In this document: piece after piece, positions 1 to 4,059 of the stretch
Layout of the letters: every line of letters begins with the position of its first letter
Position numbering within the stretch: position 1 is the stretch's first letter
From: Bacillota bacterium
Lineage (GTDB): Bacteria; Bacillota; Limnochordia; DTU087
Length of the DNA stretch: 39,671 bases
Direction of reading: 5' to 3'
NCBI GenBank assembly: GCA_012727675.1
Contig: JAAYGR010000052.1
Coordinates: 1 to 39,671 of the forward strand
The notes under the pieces: generated by a model
The model's database searches: none
Told to the model about the DNA's origin: nothing
What the model saw: the letters and a program-made list of their open reading frames with translations, nothing else
Made by a program: the position numbers and the translations under genes

Positions 1-126
1 CAGCAGCCCCCGACTGGGCGTCAGCGGCCACCACCAGAGACTTCATCGATGTGCCAGTGACGGATTTTTAGGCCCGTCTTCGAAAACGGGTGTATCGACT
101 AGGATACTGCGCCACCTATCTCATTT
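1..126 (-). ncRNA. Candidate 5' part of OLE (ornate large extremophilic) RNA, truncated by window edge
   Basis: Non-coding stretch directly downstream of ispA in an xseA-xseB-ispA operon, with its own TTGAGC-N17-TATAAT promoter; hairpins GTATC/GATAC (92-107) and CCCGT/ACGGG (73-90). OLE genes sit in this syntenic position. Sequence match to the family not verified. Confidence 0.55.
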
Positions 127-132
127 GTAATA

Positions 133-161
133 ATTATAGCACAATCTCCAAGCCTGCTCAA
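133..161 (-). promoter_or_regulatory. Sigma-A-type promoter (TTGAGC-N17-TATAAT) driving the leader/ncRNA at the left edge
   Basis: Minus strand -35 TTGAGC (161-156), 17-nt spacer, -10 TATAAT (138-133). Confidence 0.65.
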
Positions 162-220
162 GAAAGCCCCAGAGCCCCGTTGGGCTGCTGATGGAGGTCA
201 ACGGGCAGGTGGTAGTCCCG

Positions 221-1153
221 CTAGTAGTCCCGCTGGACTATATATTCTGCTAGACTACCCAGGATTTCACTGCCTGCAAGACCGGCCACGGCCTCCTTGG
301 CTTCCTCCATAGCTCTAGCGGCTAAAGTCCGGGCCCCTTCCACTCCGTATAGGGAGACATATGTGACTTTTCCCTGTTCCGCATCGCTGCCGACTCTCTT
401 ACCAAGTTTGGCCTCGTCTCCCACCACATCCAGGATATCATCGGTGATCTGGAAGCAGAGGCCGAAGCAGTCGGCATAGCGGGTTACCGCTTCAAGCTCT
501 TCCTCGCTAGCTCCACCCAGCAGTGCTCCACACCGAACCACCGCCCGAAACAAGGCACCGGTCTTGTGGGTATGGATATACCTTAAAGTCTCCTCAGGTA
601 TCTCCTTGCCTTCTGATTCTAAATCCACCGCTTGTCCACCGATTAGGCCCCGGCTGCCCCCAGCTTGGGCCATCTCCCTGATAATGTTTACCACCACTTC
701 CACCGGAACACCTAGATCCGCCAGCCGACCCAGCAAGGCAAAGCTTTCCGTCAATAGGGCATCACCGGCCAGTACTGCCACTGCTTCACCGAAAACCTTG
801 TGGTTAGAGGGTTTTCCCCGGCGAAAATCATCATCATCCATACAGGGCAGATCATCATGAATCAGCGAATATGCGTGGAGCATCTCCACTGCAGCCGCTA
901 GCCGGTAAGCTGCAGGCAGCACCTGGTGAAGGCGGTCCTTAGCTGCTATCTTTGCCGATGCCACTGCCAAAAGCCCCCGCAGCCGCTTTCCGCCCCCTAG
1001 GGTGCTGTACCTCATTGCCTGATGCAGCTTTTCGGGATAGGCTGTATCAGGCGGCAGGCAATCTTCCAACTCCCTTTCAATGGCCGGCAGATGCTCTGCC
1101 ATAAACTTCGCTAGTGTCATAGGCTTAGACTCCTTCATCATCAGCTTCCACAT
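221..1153 (-). CDS. ispA: Farnesyl/geranylgeranyl diphosphate synthase (polyprenyl synthetase)
   Basis: GGGKRLRG, LIHDDLPCMDDDDFRRGKP (first Asp-rich motif), FQITDDILD (second Asp-rich motif); next to xseB. Confidence 0.95.
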   Translation of the reverse strand: MWKLMMKESKPMTLAKFMAEHLPAIERELEDCLPPDTAYPEKLHQAMRYSTLGGGKRLRGLLAVASAKIAAKDRLHQVLPAAYRLAAAVEMLHAYSLIHDDLPCMDDDDFRRGKPSNHKVFGEAVAVLAGDALLTESFALLGRLADLGVPVEVVVNIIREMAQAGGSRGLIGGQAVDLESEGKEIPEETLRYIHTHKTGALFRAVVRCGALLGGASEEELEAVTRYADCFGLCFQITDDILDVVGDEAKLGKRVGSDAEQGKVTYVSLYGVEGARTLAARAMEEAKEAVAGLAGSEILGSLAEYIVQRDY

Positions 1154-1382
1154 TTAACGGGAGGGTGCAGGGCTCACCCTCTTCGTTGATTACCAGCTTA
1201 GCAATGCGAGCTTCAGCTGCGTCTAATTGCTTGGAGCACCGGCGAACCAGCTGAACTCCTTCTTCGAAGAGAGTAAGCGAATCCTCTAGTGAGACATCTC
1301 CCTGCTCCAGTTCTCTAATAATCTGCTCCAATCGGCCAAAATTTTCCTCAAAGGTCTTCTTTTCATCCACCTTAATCGACAC
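1125..1382 (-). CDS. xseB: Exodeoxyribonuclease VII small subunit
   Basis: FEENFGRLEQIIRELEQGDVSLEDSLTLFEEGVQLVRRC is typical XseB; overlaps xseA. Confidence 0.95.
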   Translation of the reverse strand: MSIKVDEKKTFEENFGRLEQIIRELEQGDVSLEDSLTLFEEGVQLVRRCSKQLDAAEARIAKLVINEEGEPCTLPLNVEADDEGV

Positions 1383-2679
1383 CTACTTCCCCAACTCCAG
1401 GTTCTCTCTCCCGCTGCTCGGCACTTCCTGGATGAACCTCTTCCACCTTTGTTATCAGGCTGCCATCCTGCAGCAAGACCTCCACTTCTTGACCTATCTC
1501 CCCTTGGGTCGCTGAGACTATTGGTCTACCGGTCTTCCCATCCCGGGCAATGGCGTATCCTCTACCCAGCACCGAAAGTGGGCTCAGGCTGTCAAGGCGT
1601 TGTGCCGCCAGCTGCAGCTCCCGCCTTTCCCTAGTAATCTTGCGCTCAACAGCCTGCTGCATCCTCAGGACGAGCTCATCCAGGCGCTGGCGCCTTTGTC
1701 TAACTGTATCGACGGGGTTGTAGCCCTTCAGTATCCGTTCCAAATGGCCCAACTGCTCCCGCTTTCGGGATGTATACTGCAGCCAGGTCTGCCGCAGCCG
1801 CACCTCTAGATCACGTAAACCGGCAAGGAGTTCGGCAGCCACCGGCACTGCCAGCTCCGCAGCCCCGGAGGGAGTCGGAGCCCTAAGATCTGCTGCGAAA
1901 TCGCAGATGGTAAAATCGGTTTCATGGCCCACCGCTGAAATAACAGGAACTGGACTAGCAGCCACCGTCCTGGCCACAATCTCTTCATTGAAGGGCCAAA
2001 GGTCTTCTATGGACCCGCCGCCCCGTCCAACAATGATTACATCAACATCGCCCCAACGGGCCAGTGCCTCTAGGCCGGCAGCGATGCTGGCTGCCGCCCC
2101 TTTACCCTGCACCAAGGCAGGGGCAACTAGTATTTCTACACTGGGCATGCGCCGATGTAAGATGCTGATGATATCCCTGATGGCAGCTCCAGTGGGAGAT
2201 GTCACGACCCCTATTCTCCTGGGCAGGAAAGGGATGGGTCTTTTTCTTGCCTCATCAAACAGCCCTTCGGCTTTGAGCTTCTCCTTAAGCTGCTCAAAGG
2301 CAAGATGCAGGTCTCCTACACCCCGGGGTTCCATGAACTGCACATAAAGCTGATACACTCCACCGGCCTCGTAGATACCAATGGAGCCTGTAGCATATAC
2401 CTCCAGGCCGTCCTGGGGACTAAACCGCAGGCGGCTGGTGAAGCTCCGGAACATGACGCACTTGATGCTGCTTGAGGCATCCTTGAGCACAAAATACATA
2501 TGACCCGAGCTGTGGTGCTTAAAGTTGGATATCTCACCACACACGGTGACATATTGAAATAACGGCTCATCTTCTAGATACCGTTTCAGCAAACGGGTAA
2601 TGTCCGTAACAGAATATACCGGAGGACCTGATGTCACCGGCTCCATTTTTCCAAATGACATTTGCGACATTGACTTCAC
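1372..2679 (-). CDS. xseA: Exodeoxyribonuclease VII large subunit
   Basis: GEISNFKHHSSGHMYFVLKD, GRGGGSIEDLWPFNEE, SAVGHETDFTICDFAADLRAPTPSGAAE. Confidence 0.97.
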   Translation of the reverse strand: MKSMSQMSFGKMEPVTSGPPVYSVTDITRLLKRYLEDEPLFQYVTVCGEISNFKHHSSGHMYFVLKDASSSIKCVMFRSFTSRLRFSPQDGLEVYATGSIGIYEAGGVYQLYVQFMEPRGVGDLHLAFEQLKEKLKAEGLFDEARKRPIPFLPRRIGVVTSPTGAAIRDIISILHRRMPSVEILVAPALVQGKGAAASIAAGLEALARWGDVDVIIVGRGGGSIEDLWPFNEEIVARTVAASPVPVISAVGHETDFTICDFAADLRAPTPSGAAELAVPVAAELLAGLRDLEVRLRQTWLQYTSRKREQLGHLERILKGYNPVDTVRQRRQRLDELVLRMQQAVERKITRERRELQLAAQRLDSLSPLSVLGRGYAIARDGKTGRPIVSATQGEIGQEVEVLLQDGSLITKVEEVHPGSAEQREREPGVGEVGVD

Positions 2680-2732
2680 CAGCTAATCCCTTCTCCGTAA
2701 AAAGACTATTCCCTGCCCATATCTGTCAATGG

Positions 2733-2768
2733 AAAAAGGGTCGGCCCATGATCCGCGATGCCGACCCC
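2733..2768 (-). terminator. Intrinsic terminator between the 52-aa membrane protein gene and xseA
   Basis: Minus strand GGGTCGGC-loop-GCCGACCC followed by TTTTTCC. Confidence 0.7.
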
Positions 2769-2798
2769 AACCCAAAAAATTCCAGACGAGCACCCGCC

Positions 2799-2957
2799 TT
2801 AGTTGGCAGCCTCGCCGGTATCTTCCCCCCGCTTAGCCCAAAGTTCAGCAAGGTAACCGACGATCAGCCCGACGATGACCCAAAGCCAATATCCCGGAGC
2901 GACAAAATGTCCTACTAAGAGGCCGATTATGGCACCGATGAGCAGTTTCCACCACAT
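2799..2957 (-). CDS. Small (52 aa) membrane protein, below the ORF track cutoff
   Basis: Translation MWWKLLIGAIIGLLVGHFVAPGYWLWVIVGLIVGYLAELWAKRGEDTGEAAN; two hydrophobic segments; GGGGAGG SD about 10 nt upstream; terminator downstream. Confidence 0.7.
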   Translation of the reverse strand: MWWKLLIGAIIGLLVGHFVAPGYWLWVIVGLIVGYLAELWAKRGEDTGEAAN

Positions 2958-3045
2958 TATGCATAAACCTCCCCTACCGTTTGCCCCGACATCCCTGCAT
3001 TCAGTAGGAGTCTATGCACTGCTGTCTCAGTTAATAACTGAATCT

Positions 3046-4059
3046 TTATCCTTGCCCCAGCCTAGCTGCCTGCTGAAGGGTCCGCCATCGGCCGTAGGCA
3101 GCAACTCCAACTGCATTATCGCTGCTTAGGCGGCTGGGAGCAAAGTTGATGCTGATACCGGCCCTATCCAGCTCCTGGGAAAGATACTGCCGCAAGTACT
3201 GATTGGCTGCAACGCCCCCGACCATGAGCACTATACTCAATCCCGAAGCTTCCGCTGCAGCCTTGATCATCTTGGCAGCACTCTCCGCTATGCACATCTC
3301 AACTCCCTGGGCTACACCCGCCGGATGGGCACCGGCCTCCAGCAGCCGCTGCGCGGCAGTCTCAGAGCCGGAGAAATTCACATTGATTCCCTTGACGGAA
3401 ACAGCTAAAGGGACAGGCTCTATCCCCTGCTCCCGCCCTGTCTGGGCCAGTTTCTCCAATTGGGGACCGGCAGGGAAGGATAACCCAAGCTTGACACCGA
3501 TGCGGTCAATCAGCTGACCGGCGTGAATATCAAGGCTGCCGCCCAAGATTTCGATCCTAAAGCCTTCACCATCTTCTCCGCCGGACTCATCCAACCGTAC
3601 AGACACCACCTCAGTGGTGCCGCCGGAAAGATGGACTGCCAAGAAGTCTCGCTCCAACGGCATCCCACTTTTACCCATAGAAAACAACCCTGCCCAGATG
3701 TGCCCTGCTTGGTGACTGGTTAGGTATAAGGGTACATCCCAAGCCAAGGCTAGGGCTCGGGCCATTCCTTCTCCCGTTTTGAAGACCGGCATGTAGGAAC
3801 CGGCAGCAGACCTTGGCTTGCTGCTGACTGCCACCCCGGTGATATCCTCCCGGGGAAGCACTTCGCTTAGGAGCTGGGGAAGATTTCTTACATGCTGAAA
3901 AACCGCCTCAGCCTGGCGCAGGCCCCTCTTACCCTGGGGCACCTCCAACAGCAGACGGCGGTCAGCCAAAAGCTCTCTACCAGCAATGAGTGCCACTGAG
4001 GTTGTATAGCAGCTGGTATCAATACCAAGTATGACAGGATGTCTAGCTTCGCGCTGCAA
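3046..4059 (-). CDS. TsaD/Kae1-family (glycoprotease) paralog
   Basis: ILGIDTSCYTTSVALI, HQAGHIWAGL (HxxxH), LAVHLSGGTTEV, SSDNAVGVAAYG; divergent from canonical TsaD. Confidence 0.8.
   Translation of the reverse strand: MQREARHPVILGIDTSCYTTSVALIAGRELLADRRLLLEVPQGKRGLRQAEAVFQHVRNLPQLLSEVLPREDITGVAVSSKPRSAAGSYMPVFKTGEGMARALALAWDVPLYLTSHQAGHIWAGLFSMGKSGMPLERDFLAVHLSGGTTEVVSVRLDESGGEDGEGFRIEILGGSLDIHAGQLIDRIGVKLGLSFPAGPQLEKLAQTGREQGIEPVPLAVSVKGINVNFSGSETAAQRLLEAGAHPAGVAQGVEMCIAESAAKMIKAAAEASGLSIVLMVGGVAANQYLRQYLSQELDRAGISINFAPSRLSSDNAVGVAAYGRWRTLQQAARLGQG

Follow-up and report, generated by a model that had tools for sequence, protein, structure and literature searches.

The window analysed here, a stretch of 39,671 nucleotides that forms the entire contig JAAYGR010000052.1 (C215) of a 319-contig Bacillota genome (G000; Limnochordia, DTU087; assembly GCA_012727675.1), almost certainly opens with the 5′ quarter of a full-length-type OLE RNA gene, which is preceded by its own promoter, would give rise to the RNA of a ribonucleoprotein and was split by the assembly. 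Membership of Rfam family RF01071, synteny, conservation of the promoter across relatives, the genes of three partner proteins and the signature of an assembly break were all observed, and the locus is in these respects an ordinary full-length OLE of a known kind. Indeed, a published survey retrieved 2,822 OLE hits in Bacillota (PMC11332333), and the OLE locus of this genome is probably already among them.

A comparison of the whole window with Rfam (cmscan) yielded two matches, OLE RNA and 6S RNA. The former covers window positions 131 to 1 on the minus strand, with 114.6 bits and an E-value of 1.5e-29 over model positions 1-132, the gathering score of 50 bits being used as the membership cut-off for both parts of the gene. 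This alignment is clean from model position 1, and its 3′ end is cut by the window edge; the remainder occupies bases 1-487 of C144, a different contig from this genome, which starts at its first base with model positions 138-616 (343.3 bits). The first-pass annotation had proposed an OLE gene directly after ispA, on the basis of structured sequence past a promoter that lacked a convincing open reading frame: the covariance match confirms this proposal within the window, and extension of the locus onto the second contig recovers the rest of the RNA.

The surroundings of the gene are those expected for OLE. Immediately upstream lies ispA, encoding farnesyl diphosphate synthase (221..1153, minus strand; NF045485, E 4.4e-105; PF00348, E 1.8e-60), the stop codon of which (223-221) is located where it had first been placed. 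It is preceded on the same strand by xseB and xseA, which encode the small (1125..1382; TIGR01280, E 2e-22) and large (1372..2679; TIGR00237, E 4.5e-148) subunits of exodeoxyribonuclease VII. On the other side, oapA and dxs had been predicted to come next, and both are found on C144: an oapA-like gene directly past OLE (547-1176), followed by dxs (1182-3092; TIGR00204). The order across the two contigs thus reads xseA-xseB-ispA-OLE-oapA-dxs-tlyA-nadK-argR-recN-spoIVB-spo0A, where tlyA, nadK (NAD kinase), argR, recN, spoIVB and spo0A were named from their translations rather than by profile search, and the window side also holds nusB, AmaP, accC and spoIIIAE. Between nusB and xseA, a TsaD/Kae1-like protein (window 3046-4059, minus strand) scores 154.8 bits against a TsaD cut-off of 207.8 bits and is probably a paralogue.

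The same-strand promoter noticed at the outset was located at 133..161 (minus strand) by pattern scans. It consists of a −35 element TTGAGC (161-156), a 17-nt spacer, a TG extension and a −10 element TATAAT (138-133), agrees with 10 of the 12 consensus letters and predicts a transcription start near position 126. It is the sole match of the TTGAGC-N17-TATAAT type in the window, where 0.02 would be expected by chance in such a scan. Its position is also kept in relatives. In a comparison of the sequences upstream of 56 distinct loci, TG and TATAAT precede a conserved GCAGTAT by 22 nt throughout the genus of the window and by 21-25 nt in the majority of the other class members; the −35 element shows moderate conservation outside the family. 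For 55% of the 56 loci, the best candidate at the expected distance was a perfect TATAAT, versus a mean of 1.5% in shuffles; the 56 include a false anchor (L052), which lies outside OLE and counts against the promoter. This near-fixed position supports the view that the predicted promoter is real, and its conservation across the class serves as supporting evidence that OLE has a promoter of its own. An OLE promoter was reportedly described in Halalkalibacterium halodurans by Ko and Altman in 2007, so that one was to be expected here.

One alternative is that OLE is a processed piece of a long ispA-dxs operon transcript, with the TATAAT being there by chance. Such a reading draws on the polycistronic transcription of the H. 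halodurans cluster (PMC12265935), but an extended −10 element with a conserved distance to GCAGTAT (22 nt in the genus, 21-25 nt in most of the class) speaks against a chance occurrence, as does the precedent of H. halodurans itself, where OLE is reported to lie within a large operon and to have its own promoter too (PMC9723947). We therefore consider this alternative improbable, bearing in mind that operon transcription and a dedicated promoter can coexist.

The division of the gene between two contigs is in all likelihood an artefact of the assembly, namely a break in a de Bruijn graph with k=127. In another species of the same genus (G002, downstream contig JAAYHH010000203.1), contigs end at exactly the same two OLE bases. 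The window and its G002 counterpart are identical over exactly 127 terminal nucleotides and then diverge; the two downstream contigs are likewise identical over exactly 127 nt at their ends, so that this signature marks each of the four OLE contig ends. Comparison with the intact gene of genus mates, which reads ...GGGGGCTGCTG-CTGGG-GGTTAAG..., indicates that 5 nt are absent between C215 and C144. Assemblers of the de Bruijn type run with k=127 break wherever a stretch longer than k is identical in two co-assembled genomes, and the cut at window base 1 would accordingly result from a stretch of 259 nt (127+5+127) identical in the two species, which the assembler left unresolved. Between these sister species, identity is 98-99% for OLE and 88-90% for ispA, oapA and dxs. 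From the 127-nt signature we infer that both genomes were assembled together, and the missing 5 nt, the synteny and the matching ends point to C215 and C144 being adjacent. In the data themselves, OLE in this organism is carried by two contigs, with 5 nt missing and 127-nt shared ends.

The other end of the window tells the same story. A 6S RNA (RF00013, 39498-39671, minus strand, 86.7 bits) has its 5′ end cut by the contig end, and the terminal stretch shared with the sister species is again exactly 127 nt, which attributes this cut to the same k=127 break as in OLE.

A true interruption of OLE in the organism, for instance through insertion of a mobile element at window base 1, was considered since contigs of two species of the genus stop at the same OLE base. 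This explanation is very unlikely: it was rejected because of the exact 127-nt ends shared with the counterparts at the four OLE contig ends and at the 6S contig end, and it is further contradicted by the intact gene in three other genus mates and by contig ends free of mobile-element sequence. OLE also holds contig ends in three further genomes (G037, G019 and G044), and it may be a general breakpoint of metagenome assemblies.

Finally, the first-pass annotation had named an in-frame ATG within the putative RNA as a potential start of a real protein. This frame (MKSLVVAADAQSGAA..., 1..46, minus strand) lies within an OLE helix and is, judging from its conservation pattern, RNA structure rather than a gene. 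It amounts to 18 codons, with a TAA at codon 19, still inside OLE, in 41 of 47 distinct sequences; internal stops occur in three distant relatives, and others have no ATG. Minor letters number 57 at the first codon position, 93 at the second and 80 at the third, and hence there is no synonymous excess at third positions. A protein gene past ispA starting at this ATG, to which the open frame up to the window edge and the retention of ATG and frame length in most relatives might lend some credit, can practically be dismissed, as the frame stops at codon 19 in relatives, shows no coding signature and has conserved letters that are those of the OLE model.

Genes for oapA, OapB and OapC appear to be present in the genome. 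The oapA product matches CNNM weakly (E 0.0014, short of the Pfam cut-off), which can be set beside the weak homology described between OapA and the CNNM domain of MpfA (PMC11332333); searches returned no PDB relative by sequence and no NCBIfam match for it. Among nine genomes tested, an oapA-like protein was found in all four that contain OLE and in none of the five that lack it. As a Pfam search for KOW domains retrieved ribosomal L24 and NusG only, OapB was located through its genomic position: the 92-aa protein encoded between map and infA has as its best PDB match 7k9b, OLE-associated protein B (E 2.5e-8). The OapC candidate is an L7Ae-like protein encoded between rpoC and rpsL, with best PDB matches to the YbxF-type structures 3v7e and 4lck (E 6e-14), YbxF being the same protein as OapC (PMC9723947). 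All three partners that are essential in Halalkalibacterium would thus be encoded in this genome.

The locus closely resembles the OLE-OapA-OapB-OapC system of H. halodurans: the covariance match spans model positions 1-132 and 138-616, ispA, oapA and dxs are neighbours, OLE has its own promoter (predicted here), and orthologues of OapB and OapC are found in the genome. The presence of one MpfA-type protein differs from H. halodurans as described, and no other substantive difference was found. With OLE variants 1 and 2 (TANB77 and RF39 clades), this RNA has the conserved core in common; unlike them, it aligns over model positions 138-616 on C144 without a large deletion, which, together with the presence of OapB and OapC, assigns it to the full-length type rather than to either variant.

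OLE was detected in 56 of 61 genomes (the genome under study and 60 relatives) and in none of 14 control genomes. MpfA-type proteins have been described as anticorrelated with OLE (PMC11332333), and this anticorrelation recurs in the class, even inside one genus. Each of the five genomes that lack OLE (G016, G025, G028, G030 and G031) carries two to three CorC/HlyC-domain matches, whereas just 5 of the 56 genomes with OLE have at least two (Fisher p 4e-5, uncorrected for relatedness). Since the five fall in two families, the independent events may be as few as two. Within genus g12, two species without OLE have two CorC/HlyC matches each, and three species with OLE have none. In the class, and once within one genus, loss of OLE and OapA may have gone along with the acquisition of additional MpfA-type Mg2+ exporters, a scenario for which we regard the chances as even. 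If true, the proposal that MpfA functionally replaces OLE could be studied in a natural experiment.

Two genomes deserve further mention. The MpfA-type protein of the genome under study (L074 343-1764, contig C240), which matches the PaeA and CorC models with scores under their cut-offs, occurs alongside OLE and is an exception to the published anticorrelation. In G051, two different contigs (C8 and C52) each hold a complete OLE match, the two scores being 477.9 and 472.4 bits, and a CorC/HlyC-domain match lies about 2 kb from OLE on C52; the two copies could reflect a duplication or a mixed bin.

As regards function, the OLE ribonucleoprotein is described as membrane-associated with OapA and as supporting growth under alcohol, cold and Mg2+ stress (PMC11332333), and cryo-electron microscopy has revealed that the OLE of Clostridium acetobutylicum forms a dimer (PMC12286853). 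By analogy with H. halodurans, the sigma-70-type extended −10 promoter at 161-133 would start a noncoding transcript of about 600 nt, which would then fold and assemble with membrane-located OapA and with OapB and OapC, and the resulting ribonucleoprotein would support growth under these same stresses. Transcription, complex formation and a stress role are what we infer from this analogy for the present organism, and family membership makes the ribonucleoprotein role the most likely one.

As this locus illustrates, the identity of OLE (and of 6S RNA) between sister species breaks metagenome assemblies; given that such breaks are driven by identity, OLE fragments at contig ends should not be discarded but traced to the contig that holds the rest. 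Among structured bacterial RNAs that lack a known biochemical function, OLE ranks with the largest, and to our knowledge no biochemical activity has been attributed to it in any organism. For this reason each well-placed locus aids comparative work, and the present one adds a dedicated OLE promoter that appears to be conserved across an entire class.
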